A DNA stretch of 43,921 nucleotides, taken from positions 1-43,921 of the forward strand of contig JAUXED010000007.1 in the NCBI GenBank assembly GCA_030618105.1, given 5' to 3'. Both the position numbers and the translations under genes were made by a program. The notes beneath the pieces are model-generated. The model did not search any database, was not told where the DNA came from, and saw only the letters and a program-made list of their open reading frames with translations. Of the stretch, positions 566-23,156 are shown one piece after another. This DNA comes from Bacteroidota bacterium. Its GTDB lineage: Bacteria; Bacteroidota; Bacteroidia; Bacteroidales; VadinHA17. Within the stretch, counting starts at the first letter, position 1, and the number at the start of each line of letters is the position of its first letter.

Positions 566-670
566 AAAAAAATGGCTACAGTTAGGAGTTGTATTGCTTC
601 TCTGCCTTCCCAACTTGATGTCGCCAAATGCGATTTCAAGTTATCGAACTCATGTTAGTTTACAATAAGC
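566..670. other. Non-coding spacer, no convincing gene
   Basis: The stretch between the inverted repeat and the tandem array contains only a 28-codon frame (ATG 572 to TAG 656-658). An AGGAG-like sequence precedes that ATG, but it is part of the repeat arm. I see no recognisable protein motif and treat the stretch as non-coding. Confidence 0.4.
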
Positions 671-1016
671 GGTCAGACCGGTGGGAAAAGGATATAGCTT
701 ATATGAAATTCCAGAGATAAGTAGAAACAGAATGCTGAAGTAATTAACAACCGGTCAGACCGGTGGGAAAAGGATATAGCTTATTTGAAATTCCGGAGAT
801 AAGTAGAAGCAAAATGCTGAAGTAATTAACAACCGGTCAGACCGGTGGGAAAAGGGATATAGCTTATATGAAATTCCGGAGATAAGTAGAAGCAGAATGC
901 TGAAATATATACAATCGGTCAGACCGGTGGGAAAGAGGATATATCTTATATGAAATTCCGGAGATAAGTAGAATCAGAATGCCGAAGTAATTAACAACCG
1001 GTCAGACCGGTGAAAA
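671..1016. repeat. 82-bp tandem repeat array with a palindrome in each unit
   Basis: GGTCAGACCGG recurs at 671, 753, 835, 917 and 1000, giving periods of 82, 82, 82 and 83 bp; four full units and a partial fifth are present. The full units differ at only a few positions. Each begins with the hyphenated palindrome ACCGGTC-A-GACCGGT or a near copy (7-bp arms, one central base), followed by a conserved GGGAAAAGGATATAGCTTAT. The unit length is not a multiple of three and all frames carry stops, so it is not a coding repeat. The whole unit is repeated, so it is not a CRISPR array. The palindromes have the size of a dimeric regulator operator. Confidence 0.9.
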
Positions 1017-1092
1017 AGCAGCTTATTAGAAAAACTGACAAATGAATATATTTTTTTCGGTTCAATAGAACTTCGGGAAAATATAAATAATA

Positions 1093-1108
1093 ACGTTATT
1101 AATAACGT
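1093..1108. repeat. 16-bp perfect palindrome ACGTTATTAATAACGT (copy 1)
   Basis: ACGTTATTAATAACGT is its own reverse complement. The same 16-mer recurs at 9501-9516, and a one-mismatch copy lies at 9525-9540. Here it lies in non-coding sequence between the tandem array and the Fic gene. No T-tract adjoins it, so a terminator role is unlikely at this copy. Confidence 0.7.
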
Positions 1109-1627: not shown

Positions 1628-3124
1628 ATGGAAAATAATTTGCCAATTCACTTACAAGAGGTGATCTATGGTTCCTCCGATTCAGCTATTTCTAAACAAA
1701 TATCAAAACTGGAAAAAGAGAGAAAGATAAGGAAAATAGCACCCAGACTTTATTCCTCCAATTTAATTGATTCCCCGGAGGAAATAGTAAATAGAAACTT
1801 GTTTTCCATTTTGGGAAACTTGTATCCAAAGGCTGTACTGAGTCATCGCTCTGCTTTGGAATTTAAGCCCACTTCTACAAGACAGTTATTCCTCACTTAC
1901 AAATATACCCGCAAGGCAAAACTGCCTGGTGTAGTTATCCGATTTCTGGAAGGGAATGGTCCGATAGAAGGCGACATCCCATTCTCTGGTGAACTATATG
2001 TTTCACAACGGGAGAGGGCTTTTCTGGAAAATCTTCAAACATCGAGAAAGCTTGGTCCCGATTCAAAAACTTTAACCTTCCCGGAAATTGAAGATAGGTT
2101 AGAAATGATTATCAGAGTAAACGGAGAAGAGGAATTGAATAAGGTAAGAGATCAAGCCAGGTCGGTGTCTGAAGAATTAGGATTGCAAAAGGAGTTTTTA
2201 AAACTTAATAAAATAATAAGCGCGCTTCTCTCAACTCATCCCTCCAAAATATTAAAATCACCGGTTGCATCCGCGAGAGCTTTTGGAGTTCCATACGATC
2301 CGGCTAGATTAGAGCTATTTGAAATCCTGTTTCGGGAACTCAATCAACAAGAATTTAAATATATAAAGGATAAGAATATCAGTATAAAAGCATTTAGGAA
2401 TTTTGCGTTTTTTGAAAGCTATTTCTCAAATTATATTGAAGGAACAATATTCAGTGTTGAAGATGCTAAACAAATTATTGAAACTCAAAAACCTCTGCCG
2501 GCAAGAAATGAAGATTCTCATGATGTTTTAGGAACATACCAAATTGTTTCTAATCTTACAGAGATGTGCATTGTCCCACAATCAACCGGCGACATGCTCA
2601 ATATATTAAAATACAGGCACCAGGTTTTATTAGCTGCCAGAACAGACAAAAAACCAGGGCATCTTAAGGATAAGAACAACTTAGCAGGTAATACTGCTTT
2701 TGTTGATATGAGTTTGGTTAAAGGAACGATTATTAAAAGTTTTGATTATTACCAGGCTATAAAACATCCTTTCGCCAGAGCAGCTTATGTGATGTTTGTT
2801 GTGGCTGAAATACATCCATTTTTAGATGGAAACGGACGAGTAGCAAGAGTAATGATGAATGCGGAATTGGTAAATGCAAATCAAACAAAAATAATTATTC
2901 CCACAGTATACAGGGATGATTATTTAGGAGCTTTGAGGAAACTTACCCGGCAAAAGGACCCAAACCCATACATTCGAATGCTTTCTCGCGCCCAGGAATT
3001 TAGTTCGACTATTGTAGCTGAAGAAATGGATGATATGCAAAAATTATTAGAAGATAGTAATGCATTTTTAGAGCATACAGAAGGAAAACTAAAGATAAAA
3101 ACTTCAGCCAACAAATTTTTGTAA
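1628..3124 (+). CDS. Fic-domain protein with N-terminal winged-helix-like region
   Basis: The 498-aa protein carries the Fic core motif HPFLDGNGRVAR at about residues 396-407. The His is the catalytic base, and the GNGR segment binds the nucleotide phosphates. A match to the inhibitory-helix motif (S/T)xxxE(G/N) is seen as SNYIEG at about 267-272, so the protein looks self-inhibited and belongs to the class with the inhibitory helix N-terminal to the Fic core. Residues 1-60 (SAISKQISKLEKERKIRKI then PRLYS) resemble the winged helix of AbiEi-type antitoxin/regulator proteins, so a DNA-binding or self-regulatory role is possible. Fic enzymes usually transfer AMP to protein Ser/Thr/Tyr hydroxyls; the target here is unknown. 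The gene stands alone, with no partner toxin or antitoxin frame beside it. Its long upstream region with palindromic repeats could be its control region. The Fic assignment is firm; the N-terminal assignment is from pattern only. Confidence 0.9.
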   Translation: MENNLPIHLQEVIYGSSDSAISKQISKLEKERKIRKIAPRLYSSNLIDSPEEIVNRNLFSILGNLYPKAVLSHRSALEFKPTSTRQLFLTYKYTRKAKLPGVVIRFLEGNGPIEGDIPFSGELYVSQRERAFLENLQTSRKLGPDSKTLTFPEIEDRLEMIIRVNGEEELNKVRDQARSVSEELGLQKEFLKLNKIISALLSTHPSKILKSPVASARAFGVPYDPARLELFEILFRELNQQEFKYIKDKNISIKAFRNFAFFESYFSNYIEGTIFSVEDAKQIIETQKPLPARNEDSHDVLGTYQIVSNLTEMCIVPQSTGDMLNILKYRHQVLLAARTDKKPGHLKDKNNLAGNTAFVDMSLVKGTIIKSFDYYQAIKHPFARAAYVMFVVAEIHPFLDGNGRVARVMMNAELVNANQTKIIIPTVYRDDYLGALRKLTRQKDPNPYIRMLSRAQEFSSTIVAEEMDDMQKLLEDSNAFLEHTEGKLKIKTSANKFL

Positions 3125-3226
3125 GCCGCCATCTTCACCAGGTGGTTCCAAGCCTCCACCTGCCTGCCTTAATTAAGAAATTAAGTTCGCAATGATCCGG
3201 CACATAGCAGCTTTCAACTTTCTTTG

Positions 3227-3252
3227 TCCACCGTAGCTTTAGCGAAGGTGGA
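3227..3252. terminator. Hairpin TCCACC...GGTGGA between convergent genes (copy 1)
   Basis: TCCACCGTAG, then CTTTAG, then CGAAGGTGGA forms a short stem (TCCACC/GGTGGA). It lies between the rightward Fic gene and the leftward membrane-protein gene, where a bidirectional terminator would be expected. A sister copy at 40094-40119 is also between convergent genes. It belongs to an intergenic repeat family common in Bacteroidota, so termination is an inference from position. Confidence 0.45.
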
Positions 3253-3276
3253 TTAACTTTTAACTTTATAACTCTT

Positions 3277-4143
3277 TCATTCTTTATTATACAGATAATA
3301 CTCAAGCTGACTGCCATATATCCATATCTTAAACCAAATCCTGCTCCAGATAAATACCTGCTGAATGAGGAACATGATGAAGATCGTAAATCCTGTAGTC
3401 ATTCCAACGACGCCTGAAAGGAATTTGAATACAAATATCAGCAAAACGAGATTTGCCAGTAAAAGCAAATACAGTGGATAGGTTGAAAAGAACTTCCGGG
3501 ATACGAATTTTACGGAAGCCCATATCTTTTTCAAAACTTTAGTGGAATCTTCTGTAATAATCATAAACCTGGTGTAATGTGCTACAATAAGCAGGTAGAT
3601 AAATATAATAATATACAGACCGCCTCCTGTAATTGCAGCATAAAAAAGCGCCTTTTCCGATTCGGCATTTTTTCCAAGGGTTACAATTATCAGTGATAAT
3701 GGCAGGTAGATGATCAGGATTACCAATGCATGAATAATAATGAAATATAATGTTAGTCGCAGGAACCTGAAGAAGAACTTACTGCCGTTCGCGAAGAATT
3801 CTTTTCTTTCAAAAACAGCCCCGTTATCTAAAGTTTTCAGGATTCCTCCTGCCATAAAAATGCTTACAAGAAGATACAGGATTGCCAGCCAGATACCTTC
3901 TTTGAATAACAGGCTGATTGAGCCTTTTGCACTGTCCATAAATTCCTGCATTGCAGTATAATTAAAACCCTCCAGTAGCTTGTTAACCTGCAGACTTCCA
4001 TGAGCTGCATTGGTTATTACACCATAAAAAGGTATAGCCAGTGCAAGTGCGAAAAGTAGATTTATAATATATATCATGGTGGTCATCTTCAACGAACGGG
4101 ATGCCAGTCGTAATCCGGATAGATAATCTTGTATAATTGTCAT
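3277..4143 (-). CDS. Integral membrane protein of unknown function, about six TM segments
   Basis: The 288-aa protein is largely hydrophobic. Likely membrane helices are at about 23-45 (MIYIINLLFALALAIPFYGV), 80-105, 130-160, 170-195, 215-240 and 245-275. The soluble parts are short, and I see no catalytic motif. It starts with ATG 14 bp after the stop of the M1 peptidase gene and is therefore probably the last gene of the acyl-CoA synthetase-peptidase operon. The fold is reminiscent of small bacterial membrane families of unknown function found next to peptidases, but I do not recognise it and give no function. Confidence 0.8.
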   Translation of the reverse strand: MTIIQDYLSGLRLASRSLKMTTMIYIINLLFALALAIPFYGVITNAAHGSLQVNKLLEGFNYTAMQEFMDSAKGSISLLFKEGIWLAILYLLVSIFMAGGILKTLDNGAVFERKEFFANGSKFFFRFLRLTLYFIIIHALVILIIYLPLSLIIVTLGKNAESEKALFYAAITGGGLYIIIFIYLLIVAHYTRFMIITEDSTKVLKKIWASVKFVSRKFFSTYPLYLLLLANLVLLIFVFKFLSGVVGMTTGFTIFIMFLIQQVFIWSRIWFKIWIYGSQLEYYLYNKE

Positions 4144-4157
4144 GGTTCTGATTTGTA

Positions 4158-6161
4158 TTAGATGAAAATTGCGAAATTCTGAAACAGGTTTTGCATAAAG
4201 AAGAGGAATTTGATCAAGTATTTTTTGAAAACAGTTTTTTGAGGTTTAATAGCCCGGCTGTTATTCTGCAAATTGATATCTAGCATTATTTTATTCTCCG
4301 GGTCGATTATTGCACGGATAATTTTTTCAGGCTTTTCATATGAAAATTCTTTGGTTCTGCTTTTTCCGTCCCAGGTTTCAGTGATCTCTTCGCCATCTTC
4401 AAAATGGATCAGCACTTCCTGGGGCATTACCACCTCGCCAAGCCGGTGTATTACCACGGACGATTTATATATTATATTTTCATACTCGGTTTTCTTGTAT
4501 ATCAGTTTATTACCCCCGGTATCATCAATACCTTTTGGTGGAGTTAATTCCTTGTTCCTTATCCTGAGAAGCTTATAGTCACATACTTCCGATCCATACA
4601 AAGTCTGGTCAAAGAACCAGTTCATATTTTCCCCAAACCTGGTTCCATGGTTTTTTGTTACAACCTCATTCACCACATTGATAAAATCTCTTCCGGAAGG
4701 ATGTTTGAATTTCCACTTTTCAAAATATGTCTTCCATATTTCTTCGTTAGTTTTTTCTCCCACGAGACGTTCCAGGGTTGTGAACATAGTGGCAGGTTTA
4801 TTATACGACATTGAACCATAACCACCATGCTCGAATTTCCATGACGGACGGGTACTCTCAGCAATTTTCGGGTAAGCTAAACGGGTATATGATAATCTAT
4901 GATTTTCCTTATCACCGAAATGGAATTTCTTAAACCCGACAAATGATGTACCCTCACCATATACGTGATCCATTATGCGCGATTCGAAATATGTATTCAT
5001 TCCCTCGTCCATCCATGCTTCTTCAAATTCGTTAGTGGCAAGGATCCCCATAAAATAGTTATGACCGAATTCATGGATGGTTACCATTTCAGTGACCCTG
5101 AGTTCATCCGGCAGACCCCAGAGCGAACCGGCTGTAATAAAAGTCGGATATTCCATCCCCGATGAGCCCAACCCCCTGAAAGGAGGGTCGACAACTGAGA
5201 TGGTGGAATAGGGATAGGGTCCTAAATGTTCGTCAAAATATTCCAATGCAGCTTTTACTGACTCAGTATGCCGTAAAGCAAGTTGTTCATGTTCGGGTTG
5301 CAGGTAAATCTTTATATCTACATCTTTCCATTTATCTTCCACAACAATGAACCGGGGTGAGGCAGTCCAGGCAAAGTCAACTACATCCTCAGCCAGGTAA
5401 GTTACCTGCTTCAGTCCGTCTTCAACCGTTTTTTCACTTATCCGTTTCCCGGTAGCACCTACAACAAATTCCTCAGGCAGAGTTATTTCTACACGGTATA
5501 CCCCGAAGTTGGCATAGAATTCAGAATGGGCATGATACTGGTGGCAATTCCATTGTCCTTTTTCAGCATAACGCATTCCGGCCGGTTCATATACACCGAT
5601 CTTAGGGAACCATTGAGCGACTAAAAAATAATTGTCGCTGAAACCGGTACGTGCAAAGATCTTGGGTAACTTTGATCTGAACTCAATATTCAGTGTCAGG
5701 CTTTCGCCTGGCAGAACCGGATTTTCAAGTTTTACTGCAGCTACCGATTGGTCATCTTCATTATCATCATCGGGCTGAACAAATTGTATTGAATTAGTAA
5801 GGTCATTTCCTTCCGGGGTCATAATCGAAAGAATGTCAACCCAGCCCCACATTTTGGGATCTTTGGTATCAACGCCTTTTCCCCTTAACCGTCCGTCTGA
5901 CTCTTTCCAGAAAGTTGACCTGTTATTCTTAAATGCATTCAGGTACATATGAAAACGCAATTCCCTGATAGTGTCCCGCGAGGGATTTTTCCATTCGAAT
6001 GTTATAGTGCCGTCAACGATTTTTTCTACAGGATCAAGTTTTACCTTCATGTTATAATTGGCGATCCTGGAACTGAGAGCCTGACTATTGCCCGAGAATG
6101 ATACGGACCATATTAGCAGGCATGTGAAGAGAGCAGTGGTAATTATTTTTTTGCAATTCAT
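4158..6161 (-). CDS. Secreted M1-family zinc metallopeptidase
   Basis: The 667-aa protein opens with a signal peptide (basic MNCKK, hydrophobic core, likely cleavage after NSQA near 28). An M1 N-terminal beta domain follows. The zinc site is HEFGH at 363-367 with the third ligand in EAWMDEGMNTYFE, 18 residues after the second His, which fits HEXXHX18E. The M1 substrate-recognition element appears as GSSGMEYPTF in place of the usual GxMEN. The protein should act as an aminopeptidase outside the inner membrane. The last 25 or so residues (KKYLIKFLFFMQNLFQNF) are unusually hydrophobic and aromatic for the family and could anchor the protein. Only 7 bp separate it from the upstream acyl-CoA synthetase gene. 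Family assignment is firm; substrate is unknown. Confidence 0.93.
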   Translation of the reverse strand: MNCKKIITTALFTCLLIWSVSFSGNSQALSSRIANYNMKVKLDPVEKIVDGTITFEWKNPSRDTIRELRFHMYLNAFKNNRSTFWKESDGRLRGKGVDTKDPKMWGWVDILSIMTPEGNDLTNSIQFVQPDDDNEDDQSVAAVKLENPVLPGESLTLNIEFRSKLPKIFARTGFSDNYFLVAQWFPKIGVYEPAGMRYAEKGQWNCHQYHAHSEFYANFGVYRVEITLPEEFVVGATGKRISEKTVEDGLKQVTYLAEDVVDFAWTASPRFIVVEDKWKDVDIKIYLQPEHEQLALRHTESVKAALEYFDEHLGPYPYSTISVVDPPFRGLGSSGMEYPTFITAGSLWGLPDELRVTEMVTIHEFGHNYFMGILATNEFEEAWMDEGMNTYFESRIMDHVYGEGTSFVGFKKFHFGDKENHRLSYTRLAYPKIAESTRPSWKFEHGGYGSMSYNKPATMFTTLERLVGEKTNEEIWKTYFEKWKFKHPSGRDFINVVNEVVTKNHGTRFGENMNWFFDQTLYGSEVCDYKLLRIRNKELTPPKGIDDTGGNKLIYKKTEYENIIYKSSVVIHRLGEVVMPQEVLIHFEDGEEITETWDGKSRTKEFSYEKPEKIIRAIIDPENKIMLDINLQNNSRAIKPQKTVFKKYLIKFLFFMQNLFQNFAIFI

Positions 6162-6168
6162 GGTGCAG

Positions 6169-8070
6169 TTATTTTTTTATCAAAGATACTTTATTCTTTT
6201 CGTTTGTTACATTTTTAGCTTCAGGAGTATATAGAAATTCGATCAGGTCTTTGTATTGTTCCACGATCTTGCCTCGTACAATTTTCATGGTGGAGTTCAG
6301 CAGGTGGTTTTCCTGCGTAAATGCCTGGTCCGGGATCCCTATTGCACCGGGCAGCCAACGCTGGGGGAACATATCTTCATATTTCCCTCCCCTCCGGTAG
6401 GCGTTTATTTCAGATTCAATTAATTTAAGAGCAGCATTCTTTCCTTCCTTTGATGTTATATCCTGGTTGTCCTCTTTCAGTTTACGATTTATTGCCTCTT
6501 TGTCCGGAACGATCAATACTACGGTATATGGGTTCTGGTTATTATAGAGCATACATTGGTCAATATATGGCGATTGTTCAGTAAATGCTTCCTCTATTCC
6601 TTCAGGACTGTATTTTTCACCGTCATTAGATATCAGCAAACTCTTGAAACGACCAAGGATGTAAAGAAAACCATCCTGATCCATATAACCCATATCGCCG
6701 GTATACAGCCAGCCATCTTTCAAAGTTGATTTTGTTGCTTCTTCATTTTTCCAGTATCCAACCATCACATTATCACCTTTAACAATTATCTCACCTTTCT
6801 TACCAACAGGAAGTTCATTTCCGTCTTCGTCACATATCTTCAGTTCAAGATTTTGCACCAGGAATCCTGATGAACCCAGTTTATGACGTTTCAGGGCATT
6901 TGAACTAATAATAGGTGCAGCTTCCGATAGTCCGTATCCTTGGAACATCGGCATACCAATAGCGTAGAAAAACCTCTGTAGTTCAATATCCAAAAGGGCG
7001 CCACCACCAATAAAGAAATCGATCTTTCCGCCAAATCCTTCACGTATTTTTGAAAATAGTATCTTGTCGTATAAAAAAAGGAGTGGTTTTTTAAGTTTCT
7101 GGAGTCCTTTCCCTCTATTAATGCCTTCTTTATTATATGAATAGGCAATTTTCAGGGCATGATTAAATAGTTTTTCAATAACCGGTCCTTTGGCACTGAT
7201 ATTCTTTTCAATATTTTTCCTGAAGTTCTTTGCCAGTGCCGGAACACTCATAAGAAGGCTGGGTTTGATCTCCTTAATATTTCCCGGTATGTTTTTTCGT
7301 GTTTCAAATCCTGTTTTTCCAACCTTAACAGATGCAACGCTTGCTCCTTTTCCCATAAAACTGTATAATCCTGCCGTGTGTGCAAAAGAATGATCCCATG
7401 GTAGTATAAGTAATGTACAATATTCGGGCGGGATATCCATTAGGGTATATGCTTGTTCAACATTTACAACATAATTTTTATGCGATAGTATTATCCCTTT
7501 CGGGTCGGCAGTGGTTCCGGAAGTATAACAAATATTGGCATAATCATCAGGAATTAACGATTGCCATCTTCTATCAAACTCATCGCTTTTCGCTGCAAGA
7601 TATTCCTCTCCTTTCATTTTAATGTAAGAGTAAAAGATATTTTTTTCTTCAGGTTTTCCCCCATTATCTAACATAATGACTTTCTCAAGGTCTTTCAGTT
7701 CATGCTTAATAGTTCTTAATTTTGGTGCCTGGTTACCGGAAGTAATAACCATTTTAGATCCGGAATGTTCCAGCCTGAATTTAATTTCAGATGGTTCTGC
7801 AAGCATAACAGACATAGGAACATTGACTGCTCCTGCATATAGTATTCCCAGTTCGCATATCAGCCAGTCATTACGACCTTCAGAGATCAATCCGATTCTG
7901 TCTCCCTTATTAATACCGATTGAAATTAGTCCGGCTCCGAATTTTCTGGCTTCATGCCTGATCTCTGCATATGTAGCGCCTTCGTATTTATCACCTTTTT
8001 TCTCCCACATAAAAATATTATCAGAAAATTTGTTTACGCTTTCTTCAAAAAACTGTATGATTGTTTTCAT
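6169..8070 (-). CDS. Long-chain fatty acid-CoA ligase / AMP-dependent synthetase
   Basis: The 633-aa adenylate-forming enzyme activates a carboxylic acid with ATP and transfers it to CoA. The P-loop-like motif YTSGTTADPKG lies at about 182-192. Further on are QGYGLSEAAP and YTGDMGYMDQDGFLYILGR, the A5 and A7/A8 motifs of the long-chain acyl-CoA synthetase group. I chose the ATG at 8070 (MKTIIQFFEE), because the longer frame begins with a TTG at 8103 and adds residues not typical of the family N-terminus. It is the first gene of a leftward operon with the M1 peptidase and a membrane protein. It faces a lipoprotein gene divergently across about 110 bp. Long-chain substrate is inferred from overall similarity. 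Confidence 0.9.
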   Translation of the reverse strand: MKTIIQFFEESVNKFSDNIFMWEKKGDKYEGATYAEIRHEARKFGAGLISIGINKGDRIGLISEGRNDWLICELGILYAGAVNVPMSVMLAEPSEIKFRLEHSGSKMVITSGNQAPKLRTIKHELKDLEKVIMLDNGGKPEEKNIFYSYIKMKGEEYLAAKSDEFDRRWQSLIPDDYANICYTSGTTADPKGIILSHKNYVVNVEQAYTLMDIPPEYCTLLILPWDHSFAHTAGLYSFMGKGASVASVKVGKTGFETRKNIPGNIKEIKPSLLMSVPALAKNFRKNIEKNISAKGPVIEKLFNHALKIAYSYNKEGINRGKGLQKLKKPLLFLYDKILFSKIREGFGGKIDFFIGGGALLDIELQRFFYAIGMPMFQGYGLSEAAPIISSNALKRHKLGSSGFLVQNLELKICDEDGNELPVGKKGEIIVKGDNVMVGYWKNEEATKSTLKDGWLYTGDMGYMDQDGFLYILGRFKSLLISNDGEKYSPEGIEEAFTEQSPYIDQCMLYNNQNPYTVVLIVPDKEAINRKLKEDNQDITSKEGKNAALKLIESEINAYRRGGKYEDMFPQRWLPGAIGIPDQAFTQENHLLNSTMKIVRGKIVEQYKDLIEFLYTPEAKNVTNEKNKVSLIKK

Positions 8071-8142
8071 TTGTTTTGTAATTAGTATTTGTGCAAGATA
8101 CAAAAAACCCTTATTTTGTTAGGTAAATGAGTATCAATTAGT

Positions 8143-8150
8143 TATTTTTG
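8143..8150 (+). promoter_or_regulatory. Bacteroidota-type -7 promoter element TATTTTTG
   Basis: TATTTTTG matches TAnnTTTG and lies about 33 bp before the lipoprotein ATG at 8184. An upstream TTTTG at about 8115-8119 could be the -33 element, but its spacing is longer than usual. The site overlaps the TTG codon that would otherwise start a longer frame, which supports the downstream ATG. Confidence 0.45.
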
Positions 8151-8183
8151 TCTTCAGTTAATACCCATAAAAGAAGGAATGAC

Positions 8184-8645
8184 ATGAGAAAATTTATTTT
8201 TATTTTATTTGCGATTTTGATTGCATTTTCATCCTGCAAATTTGTAAAGGAAAAAGGTTGGTTTGGTCTTAAAAATGCAGATACAATGGATGCTTATCTG
8301 AGAAAACAGGATAGTCTTCATATTGCTGATTCGATCAATAAAGTTATTGCAATGCAAAAGGCAATAGAGCAGGCAAGGCAGGATTCAATAAATAATGCTG
8401 AGCAGGAGAGACTTGAAAGATTTAAGTATCACATTGTTGTTGGAAGTTTTTTAACTTCTCAGTATGCTGATGAATGGTCAGTTTATTATAATTCAATGGG
8501 TTACGGTACAGAGATACTAAAAGCCAGCAACGAATTTAATCTTGTTTCTGCCAGGAAATATGATAACATGAAGGATGCATTAATAGATCTTGGGCATTTT
8601 AAGGACACGGTTCAGATTGATGCATGGGTGTATGTTAATGAGTAG
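8184..8645 (+). CDS. SPOR-domain lipoprotein
   Basis: The 153-aa protein begins MRKFIFILFAILIAFSSC, a lipoprotein signal peptide with lipobox FSSC; the Cys at about residue 18 would be lipidated. A charged, Gln-rich helical linker follows (about 50-95). The C-terminal 70 residues (YHIVVGSFLTSQYADEWSVY onward) have the beta-alpha-beta pattern of a SPOR domain, which binds glycan strands lacking stem peptides at division or remodelling sites. The ATG at 8184 is preceded by AAGAAGGA at a good distance; a TTG at 8148 would place extra basic residues ahead of the signal peptide and is rejected. The gene converges on the kinase-like gene with only 5 bp between stops. Confidence 0.82.
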   Translation: MRKFIFILFAILIAFSSCKFVKEKGWFGLKNADTMDAYLRKQDSLHIADSINKVIAMQKAIEQARQDSINNAEQERLERFKYHIVVGSFLTSQYADEWSVYYNSMGYGTEILKASNEFNLVSARKYDNMKDALIDLGHFKDTVQIDAWVYVNE

Positions 8646-8650
8646 CCAGT

Positions 8651-9346
8651 TTATTTAAGAATTTTTCTTTTTTCGAGTATAAGGACAATTGATGTTACAA
8701 TTTCTTCATTGGTCATTGTGTTACAGTTGAAGATCAAATCAAAAATGGAATGGTCTGAAGTTTTCCCCCAGTAATAATCAAGAAATTGTTTTCGTTTTTT
8801 GTCATAATCAAGAGTAAACGGTATTGCTTCAACAATATCCATATCGCGTCTTTCCCCAACACTTTTCGCTCTCCATTCAATGTCTGCTATTAATTTAATA
8901 TGCAGGCTGTTTTTGATGTCATTTGCAATAGCTGCTCCTCCTCTTCCGACAATTATAACATTTCCTGTTTCAGCAATTCTTTTTATTACTTTGCCTATTG
9001 TATTCCTGATCTTTTTGTCGCTTCTGTAATATTTTCTGGATTGCGCTGAAAGAATTTCATCAACAATACTTTTTTTCTTATAGTCAAACACATACTGTAT
9101 CTCATCAGGGTGCAAACCAAGCTGATCGGCTGATTCGGCAAGTATCTCTTTACTTACCCAACACCACTTGTTTCTTTTCTTTTTATTATTTATTGCATCG
9201 GTAAGTTCACGTGCAATTATTTTTGCAGGGCATCCGAACTCACGGGAAATAGTAACTACCGGTCCCGGAATAAGACTGGTTTTATTCTGCTCCCTTTTTT
9301 GCAGACAATCACGTGCATACTTTGCCAAATCAATTTTTGTAGCCAT
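8651..9346 (-). CDS. Cytidylate kinase-like family protein
   Basis: The 231-aa protein matches the cytidylate kinase-like group rather than classical Cmk. After a short N-terminal helix comes VVTISREFGCPAKIIARELT, the position of the nucleotide-binding loop. Most relatives have GSGG here; this protein has GCPAK, so the loop is atypical. VIIVGRGGAAIAND is the conserved second motif, and a lid-like R/K-rich segment (WRAKSVGERR) follows. Relatives are presumed to phosphorylate nucleotides or small substrates, but the function is not established. Convergent with the SPOR lipoprotein. The family is likely; the activity is uncertain given the altered loop. Confidence 0.8.
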   Translation of the reverse strand: MATKIDLAKYARDCLQKREQNKTSLIPGPVVTISREFGCPAKIIARELTDAINNKKKRNKWCWVSKEILAESADQLGLHPDEIQYVFDYKKKSIVDEILSAQSRKYYRSDKKIRNTIGKVIKRIAETGNVIIVGRGGAAIANDIKNSLHIKLIADIEWRAKSVGERRDMDIVEAIPFTLDYDKKRKQFLDYYWGKTSDHSIFDLIFNCNTMTNEEIVTSIVLILEKRKILK

Positions 9347-9561
9347 GGGAAGTAAATTTTATATTTTTCTTGCCCTTAAATTTACAAAAAAAATGTTTTC
9401 TTGTCAATAGTCAGCACATTTTTAAATACCGGTTCATATTCTTATGAAATGTAAATTTGCAGCCATTAAGAGAGGCTATTCGAAATTCATAAAAATAATT
9501 ACGTTATTAATAACGTAATTAATGCCGTTATTAATAACGTTATTATTTTATCTAAAAAAAC
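9347..9561. other. Intergenic region between purA and the kinase-like gene
   Basis: AT-rich, without a credible frame. It holds the promoter region of the leftward kinase-like gene near its left side and the paired palindromes described separately near its right side, just downstream of the purA stop. Confidence 0.5.
9497..9540. repeat. Paired ACGTTATTAATAACGT palindromes downstream of purA
   Basis: AATTACGTTATT plus AATAACGTAATT at 9497-9520 is a perfect 24-bp palindrome containing the 16-mer ACGTTATTAATAACGT (9501-9516). A second near copy, CCGTTATTAATAACGT, follows at 9525-9540. On the minus strand the 24-bp palindrome is followed by ATTTTTATG, so it could end purA transcripts, but the stem is almost all A/T and would be weak. 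Another copy of the 16-mer is at 1093-1108. Confidence 0.7.
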
Positions 9562-10821
9562 TTAGAGTTTAACGATCTGATTTCGTTTTGGTCCCACTGA
9601 AACATAACTAACAGACACATTCAGTTTCTTTTCAAGAAATGAGATATAATTTTTTAGTTCCACGGGGAATTCACGGGGGCTTGTTATATTTGAAATGTCT
9701 TTATTCCAACCTGGCAATTCAGTATAAACAGGTTCAATATCATTATCTGTTTCGAAGGGGAAATCATAAACAATTTTTCCATTTATCTTGTAAGCTGTTG
9801 AAACTTTTATTGTTTCAAAATCTGACAGAACATCAGCTTTGGTCATAATAAGTTGTGTAACCCCGTTGATCATTATAGAATAATTGAGGGCTACCAGGTC
9901 AACCCATCCACATCTTCTTGGACGGCCTGTTGTAGCACCGAATTCAACACCTTTTTTTCTTAATTTCTCACCTGTATCATCAGTTAGTTCAGTTGGGAAC
10001 GGACCACTACCAACCCGCGTACAATATGCTTTGAATATTCCGAATACTTCACCGATAGTTTGGGGTGAAACACCCAGTCCTGTGCATGCTCCGGCACAAA
10101 TAGTATTAGATGATGTAACAAAAGGATATGAGCCGAATTCAATATCAAGCAGGGTTCCCTGAGCTCCTTCGGCAAGGATAGATTTGCCATTTTTAATAAA
10201 CTTGTTTATGAGATGTTCGGAATCAACTATATTAAAATCTTTAAGAAGTTCAATACATTCAAACCATTTTTTTTCAATCTCGTCAATTTCGTATTCATAT
10301 GTATATAACTTCAGGAGTCCTTCATGTTTTTTTCGCAGGGTTGAATATTTATCCTTAAAACCCTTAAAAATATCTCCAACCCTCAATCCGTTCCTTCCGG
10401 TTTTATCCATATATGTAGGCCCGATACCTTTCAGGGTTGACCCTATCTTTGATTTTCCCTTAGCGGCTTCAGATGCGGCATCAAGGATCCTGTGGGTAGG
10501 CAATATCAGGTGTGCTTTTTTGGAGATAAGAAGGTTTTGTTTAACGTCAATTCCAAGTTTTTTCAATGATTCAACTTCTGCCTGGAAAATGACCGGATCA
10601 AGTACCACACCATTACCGATAATATTTATCTTCTCCTTATGGAATATGCCGGAAGGGATATTGTGAAGTATATGTTTGATTTTTCCTATTTCAAGAGTAT
10701 GACCCGCATTGGGCCCACCCTGGAAGCGTGCAATAATATCATATTCCGGAGACAGCACATCAACGATTTTACCCTTGCCTTCATCTCCCCACTGAAGGCC
10801 TAATAATACATCAAGTTTCAC
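9562..10821 (-). CDS. purA: Adenylosuccinate synthetase
   Basis: The 419-aa enzyme joins IMP and aspartate using GTP, the first committed step from IMP to AMP. The N-terminus MKLDVLLGLQWGDEGKGKIV contains the GDEGKGK loop at about 12-18. FQGGPNAGHTL and GIGPTYMDKTGRNGLRVGD are present, as is the C-terminal GTP/aspartate region with TTGRPRRCGWVDLVAL. Length fits the family. The start codon is GTG: an in-frame TAG lies three codons upstream and no earlier start exists. It lies 28 bp downstream of fur and is probably co-transcribed with it; rel, fur and purA in this order are a recurrent cluster in Bacteroidota as far as I know. Confidence 0.97.
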   Translation of the reverse strand: MKLDVLLGLQWGDEGKGKIVDVLSPEYDIIARFQGGPNAGHTLEIGKIKHILHNIPSGIFHKEKINIIGNGVVLDPVIFQAEVESLKKLGIDVKQNLLISKKAHLILPTHRILDAASEAAKGKSKIGSTLKGIGPTYMDKTGRNGLRVGDIFKGFKDKYSTLRKKHEGLLKLYTYEYEIDEIEKKWFECIELLKDFNIVDSEHLINKFIKNGKSILAEGAQGTLLDIEFGSYPFVTSSNTICAGACTGLGVSPQTIGEVFGIFKAYCTRVGSGPFPTELTDDTGEKLRKKGVEFGATTGRPRRCGWVDLVALNYSIMINGVTQLIMTKADVLSDFETIKVSTAYKINGKIVYDFPFETDNDIEPVYTELPGWNKDISNITSPREFPVELKNYISFLEKKLNVSVSYVSVGPKRNQIVKL

Positions 10822-23125: not shown

Positions 23126-23156
23126 ACCAGACAGACCAGTTACTGGTTGCTGGTAG

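Follow-up and report, generated by a model that had tools for sequence, protein, structure and literature searches.

An 82-bp tandem array in a Bacteroidota genome appears to be the local form of a dispersed, palindrome-ended intergenic repeat

Results

Architecture of the array and its surroundings

The window, that is, the whole stretch of 43,921 nucleotides that was analysed, is the complete contig C133 of a 2.39-Mb draft genome of a Bacteroidota bacterium (genomes, contigs and loci are designated G, C and L below). The array is bounded by an M20 peptidase gene and a Fic gene within an intergenic stretch (420-1640) that is a patchwork of several repeat families, and 616 bp that contain other repeats separate it from the Fic gene. 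Another dispersed repeat with a CTCCCCCAAGGGGGAG hairpin directly follows the M20 peptidase gene (448-572). Palindromic TAATAACGTTATTA repeats, which are frequent in the genus, occur at 1083-1118 and 9496-9545, and 1258-1415 is part of an interspersed repeat that is abundant in the genus.

The array itself spans 668-1011 and consists of five 15-bp palindromes enclosing four cores (Table 1), with spacings of 82, 82, 82 and 83 bp between palindrome starts. Tandem Repeats Finder (TRF) reported 670-1012 with a period of 82, 4.2 copies, 91 % matches and a score of 584. The preliminary description had placed an array of 82-bp repeats with perfect palindromes at 671-1016; the array and its 82-83 bp spacing are confirmed, the limits are corrected here, and the perfect 15-mer ACCGGTCAGACCGGT makes up only three of the five palindromes. 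The other two deviate at position 2 (AGCGGTC... in palindrome 1 and ATCGGTC... in palindrome 4).

Table 1 Features of the array and its immediate flanks in the window
Feature	Position	Strand	Basis
Left flank; common to the full copy in the corresponding G006 interval, partly to copies elsewhere	634..667	+	
Palindrome 1, AGCGGTCAGACCGGT	668..682	+	sequence, palindrome search
Core, unit 1, 67 bp	683..749	+	TRF, alignment
Palindrome 2, perfect 15-mer	750..764	+	sequence, palindrome search
Core, unit 2, 67 bp; as lone query gives 20 matches in genus	765..831	+	core search
Palindrome 3, perfect 15-mer	832..846	+	sequence, palindrome search
Core, unit 3, 67 bp	847..913	+	sequence, alignment
Palindrome 4, ATCGGTCAGACCGGT	914..928	+	sequence, palindrome search
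Core, unit 4, 68 bp	929..996	+	sequence, alignment
Palindrome 5, perfect 15-mer, closing end of the array	997..1011	+	sequence, palindrome search
Right flank module; several element copies have all or part	1012..1103	+	

When the window was searched for the palindrome with up to 3 mismatches, 11 matches were obtained (the five sites on both strands and a further match with 3 mismatches at 23126), compared with an expectation of 0.17 and a maximum of 2 in 100 shuffles, so that chance does not account for the array. Pairwise identity among the cores is only 87-94 %, which argues against an assembly duplicate and, as the "spacers" are so alike, bears out the earlier statement that the array is not CRISPR-like. 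It is also non-coding as described before, since a period of 82/83 is not a multiple of 3. The palindromes do not, as had been proposed, lie on the same face of the DNA. At 10.5 bp per turn, 82 bp corresponds to 7.81 turns, so that each unit shifts the phase by about 69 degrees, which amounts to 240 degrees across the array, the later palindromes standing at 291, 223, 154 and 120 degrees.

Distribution of the element in the genus and beyond

Both the palindrome and the unit recur as dispersed intergenic copies elsewhere in the genome and in genus g1. Outside the array, the usual form is a palindrome, a core of about 68 bp and a second palindrome, 96-98 bp in all. A profile model was built from 28 copies (the four window units, 23 other genus copies and a single copy from a possibly misbinned contig with the title Cloacimonadota) and 40 genomes were searched with it, 103 candidates per genome being scored. 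There were 28 matches of at least 65 bits, all of them in genus g1 and in six of its seven genomes (G006 10, G000 9, G002 4, G004 3, G003 1, G005 1 and G001 none), a count that is not independent because 27 of the 28 were in the training set of the model. Among the 33 relatives outside the genus, the top matches reached 33.6 bits (G051) and 31.9 bits (G045) and were short hairpins holding the 11-mer of the palindrome; G014, also outside the genus, gave a 93-base match of 23.4 bits (E-value 0.07). In a DNA search of 60 relatives, with up to 12 candidates scored per genome, all seven genus genomes gave matches (G001 only a 34-base piece), and one of the 53 others gave a single 25-base match. The motif CGGTCWGACCG occurs 69 times in the seven genus genomes compared with 6 times for the reversed control.

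Of the 20 matches that the palindrome-free core query (67 bases) recovered in the genus, 16 are full copies in which both end palindromes can be recognised (the right one of G006:C366 has 4 mismatches). In G003:C229 the left palindrome is decayed, and the remaining three matches are fragments of the broken locus G004:C313; this search was not exhaustive, as the copy at G000:C13 was missed. By the model search, full copies number 1-10 in each of six genomes, with none of 65 bits in G001. The array in the window is the sole tandem cluster among the fetched loci, although short-read drafts may hide others. At L099 (G004:C313) and L096 (G004:C215), element copies are broken up by other sequence.

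None of the 28 copies overlaps an open reading frame (ORF) of at least 90 aa by more than 20 bases. The genes beside them are varied and include, besides those of the window, a nucleotidyltransferase gene (L070) and a pyruvate-formate-lyase-like gene near the G002:C206 copy. At the places with a left neighbour, the 3' end of that gene points at the element in 17 of 23 (p = 0.035), and in 14 of 19 after related places had been collapsed by hand (p = 0.064), a weak tendency. Solo palindromes were seen as well: three lie in L083 (G001:C115) at 1978, 6411 and 9714, two of them some 20 bp ahead of the start codons of minus-strand ORFs (2024-6391 and 6443-9694) for large proteins rich in repeats, and the third precedes a similar start whose ORF leaves the stretch.

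Copy number at corresponding loci

The two genes that bound the array and the Fic gene in the window, encoding the M20 peptidase and a 288-aa protein without a Pfam match, also bound an interval in G006. There, one full and one broken copy of the element were found together with a pyruvate-formate-lyase-like gene, a radical-SAM gene and a ParE-like toxin gene, and none of the seven ORFs scanned in that interval matched Fic. In G002, one copy lies 445 bp beyond a pyruvate-formate-lyase-like gene, the latter being 94.9 % identical. The three loci are probably orthologous counterparts, which falls short of proof because the flanks of the element are also common to other copies.

The preliminary description had suggested a variable-number repeat controlling the Fic gene. 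The number of units does differ between these probable counterparts; a tie to Fic is not visible. A phased operator array regulating Fic, or a partition site, would account for the operator-sized palindromes, their near-constant spacing and their location upstream of the gene. We nevertheless regard both as very improbable, since the same element adjoins many unrelated genes, other repeats intervene before the Fic gene, a spacing of 82-83 bp does not correspond to an integral number of turns at 10.5 bp per turn, and the G006 interval carries the element with no Fic match among the seven ORFs scanned. For a partition or plasmid-like site in particular, no element match was found in 72,556 plasmid records, and a plasmid origin was rejected. 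Phage records (50,697) likewise gave no match, and viral contigs gave no paired match.

The four window units were no nearer to each other than to some copies from other species and formed no supported clade in the phylogenetic tree, and a recent local duplication is therefore not demonstrated. The flanks beyond the palindromes are common to some copies in several combinations. The palindromes may thus not be the true borders of the element, and a longer mobile block was considered and rejected, as no single border was found.

Conservation of palindromes and core

When the 16 full copies were compared (G003:C229 and the three G004:C313 fragments having been dropped beforehand), departures from the majority letter were rarer in the palindromes (26 of 480) than in the core (123 of 1088; p = 2e-4). 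At the inner 13 positions, the left palindrome departs at 1 of 208 (p = 4e-9 against the core) and the right palindrome at 11 of 208 (p = 0.009), and the two outermost positions of each end account for 14 of 64. The alternative raised at the outset, a genome-wide filler repeat whose palindrome shows no conservation beyond that of the remaining unit, therefore holds by half: the repeat is dispersed, and its palindromes are conserved.

This pattern was not seen between copies that have stayed in place. In three kilobase-scale syntenic pairs from different species (L074/L113, L103/L113 and L092/L114), there are 9 mismatches in 90 palindrome positions and 8 in 204 core positions, a difference in the opposite direction (p = 0.06) from small numbers. 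Two further pairs had been left out of this count. Adding G006:C20a/G000:C13, which share about 260 bp, gives 10 of 120 against 11 of 272 (p = 0.09). The comparison of the window with G006:C596, an array against a single copy, gives 3 of 30 in the palindromes against 10 of 68 in the core for unit 1, and 3 of 30 against 12 of 68 for unit 4. Resident palindromes thus show no sign of protection in syntenic pairs, except that the window pair leans weakly that way. Ends that are conserved among dispersed copies and not in place are more easily reconciled with recognition while the element moves or recombines than with an operator of the host.

The centre base of both palindromes is A on the same strand in all 28 copies, so that the two ends are direct repeats, and their inner halves are nearly uniform while the outer halves vary. 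The four bases after the left palindrome, the only position counted, are GTGG in 17 copies, GTAG in 7, GTTG in 2 and others in 2. In the array, the inner palindromes resemble joined inner halves of the element ends, as would be expected if ends had recombined. Solo palindromes made up of two outer halves are present as AGCGGTCAGACCGCT in L097 and ATCGGTCAGACCGAT in L104.

These features could also point to site-specific recombination, in which the palindrome would serve as the site, and the 82-bp unit would be a minimal cassette without coding content, inserted, excised and stacked by a site-specific enzyme to give zero, one or four units. The co-oriented centres, the contrast between inner and outer halves and the solo forms with two outer halves are all consistent with it. 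However, homologous recombination yields identical products, a double-stranded circle of 82 bp would be very small, and no recombinase could be tied to the sites. Moreover, L071 (G006:C36) with one unit and L097 (G004:C284) with none, only AGCGGTCAGACCGCT, match over 949 bp at 96 % on their right sides and their left flanks do not align, so they are not a clean pair with and without the unit. We consider this explanation improbable, if less so than an operator.

Search for a mover

The Y1_Tnp domain gave 14 matches, which are distributed over all seven genus genomes. In the fetched stretches of these draft genomes, no palindrome was found near any of the 14 (up to 2 mismatches at 13 loci and up to 3 at L115). 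Mobilisation by a RAYT was rejected on this basis, with the reservation that the drafts are incomplete and a RAYT may be missing from them. No transposase was seen in a non-exhaustive reading by eye of the ORFs near neighbouring palindromes in L070, L113, L083 and L099, of which one ORF was also scanned. When the flanks of 11 copies were joined and searched for an empty site or a target duplication, two spanning matches were present among those listed and neither was clean.

Integron attC cassettes were also considered, as a flanking repeat had initially looked attC-like. The integron integrase model TIGR02249 (scored in pieces) gave no match above its cut-off in the seven genomes; the best candidate, the one rescored as a whole protein, reached 198.7 against a cut-off of 265 and passes a XerA model, and integron cassettes were rejected on this basis. 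Two Y1 proteins deserve mention in their own right. In L115 (G000:C181; 121-3861), an IS200-like Y1 transposase domain lies in frame within an Eco57I/MmeI-type restriction-modification protein, and a shorter Y1 protein in L155 (G006:C517; 1291-2058) has a start similar to that of the L115 protein.

Folding of the element as RNA

A transcribed RNA element was weighed as well, in which the paired ends would form a stem in mRNA, or the minus-strand palindromes would act as weak terminators, and the array would tune read-through or decay. Two units fold better than shuffled sequences on both strands (z -3.6 to -5.2), end-to-end pairing is kept in 93.9 % of cells, and the covariation score exceeded that of all 500 shuffles, although related sequences can reach such a score without structure. 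The orientation of left neighbours, with the 3' end facing the element, agrees with this proposal, as do three terminator-like minus-strand sites in the array (four in the region versus 1.1 in shuffles). Against it, a stem is the consequence of a repeated palindrome, and two-sided changes were observed at one pair only, the second outermost, where they largely track subfamily. Hairpins of single palindromes fold no better than shuffles, no Rfam match reached the gathering threshold in the window, and the three syntenic pairs show no better preservation of the palindromes than of the core. An RNA function is therefore unlikely in our judgement, though the least unlikely of the alternatives discussed.

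Comparison with known repeat systems

The element resembles REPINs in its paired short palindromes, its extragenic and dispersed occurrence, its singlets as remnants and its tandem clustering. PMC3116915 describes tandem clusters in Pseudomonas fluorescens SBW25 that reach four REPINs with an additional REP. The REPs of a REPIN are inverted, whereas here the pair is direct by its centre base and each member is palindromic in itself; outer and inner halves are mirror-like, so that only the centre base reveals the orientation. The tetranucleotide tag of REPINs (GTAG or CGTC) is not constant here, and unlike in REP-RAYT systems no RAYT flanked by the palindrome was found among the 14 Y1_Tnp matches of the draft genomes. 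Copy number differs too: REPs usually exceed 100 copies, compared with 1-10 full copies per genome in six of the seven genomes of this genus. According to PMC3733652, CGTC-tagged REPs also occur in Bacteroidetes, apparently without a dedicated transposase, and they are the closest precedent for the absent mover; the present element differs from them in having no CGTC beside the left palindrome and in its stem and dimer arrangement. BIMEs, as presented in PMC2817692, share the occurrence of palindromic units amid other repeats in mosaic intergenic regions, but their REPs alternate in orientation, whereas a single orientation prevails throughout here.

MITEs such as the Correia elements are short, non-autonomous and intergenic and have terminal inverted repeats. 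The ends of the present element are likewise terminal inverted repeats (14 end-to-end pairs, paired in the large majority of cells given above) and are direct repeats at the same time. As for other MITE traits, no clean target-site duplication was found among the matches listed for the 11 joined flanks, and no parent transposon was seen among the ORFs of the four loci viewed. The element works like a REP/REPIN or a MITE and is assigned to neither named family. A full-text literature search for the 11-mer, REPINs, BIMEs and MITEs of Bacteroidetes, which does not cover most subscription papers, revealed no description of this family; the papers that contain the 11-mer are unrelated by their titles.

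The 11-mer CGGTCAGACCG was present in 233 of 395 sampled genomes across the phylum. Over 198 of the 395 rows, and against a reversed control whose different dinucleotides make the comparison rough, it occurred 94 times compared with 121 in the 98 genomes of the same class or nearer (81 compared with 121 without G000) and 267 times compared with 136 in the next 100 genomes, from other classes. There is thus no excess near the genus and a modest excess further out. Single genomes stand out with counts, 11-mer and control respectively, of 13 and 0 (G000), 18 and 3 (G073), 15 and 2 (G282), 11 and 1 (G156) and 10 and 0 (G194). By title, 28 of 95 stretches with the 11-mer are from Hymenobacter (80 of the 95 stretches were scanned), where it occurs in paired, dispersed compound hairpins of REPIN-like layout (L157 and other loci), with a different core and, in those displayed, long compound hairpins. 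The shared 11-bp palindrome can be a chance match among many REP families. Our full-text search found no literature on Hymenobacter with extragenic palindromic repeats.

A separate repeat of about 140 bp, sharply delimited on its right side, stands before unrelated genes in L070, L071, L078, L097, L102, L111, L194, L263, L269-L273 and L276. Among 17 distinct copies that extend to the right end in the loci searched, 11 end in TATAATGTT and 15 in GTT. It contains TTG, about 20 bases and TAATTTG, which we take to be a promoter of the Bacteroidota type, and judged by this motif the repeat is a possible mobile promoter.

Discussion

We favour, with reasonable though not high confidence, the reading of the array as a genus-restricted, non-autonomous repeat of REP/REPIN-like or MITE-like kind that has been tandemly amplified here. 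In this reading, an intergenic element with two near-palindromic 15-bp ends and a core of about 68 bp, seen at full length only in one genus of Bacteroidota, would have, or would once have had, its ends recognised by an enzyme. A single element would have given rise to the four units of the window by recombination or slippage between palindromes; behind this step stand its product, the array, and the single full copies at the probable counterparts in two relatives. Resident copies would then decay, and effects on neighbouring genes would be incidental, if there are any. Several results count against this reading: the low copy number for a REP family, the 14 Y1_Tnp matches with no palindrome near them in the fetched stretches, the absence of a clean empty site among the matches listed for the joined flanks, the flanks that some copies have in common, and the window units that form no supported clade. 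The syntenic comparison, moreover, is based on three pairs, and the window pair leans the other way.

The array has the look of a short, old repeat that has accumulated locally and is otherwise scattered among the genes of one small group of uncultured Bacteroidota. It is closer to known palindromic repeats of bacteria than to a dedicated switch for the Fic gene, and such a repeat is of an ordinary bacterial kind. An eye-catching array would in this way be explained as the tandem form of a dispersed repeat. The comparison used here offers a simple test for similar cases, as ends that are conserved among dispersed copies and not among syntenic ones indicate that they are recognised when the element moves, rather than serving the host as an operator. 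Should an enzyme acting on these ends be found, the element could represent a further REP-like system, one that the RAYT model does not cover.
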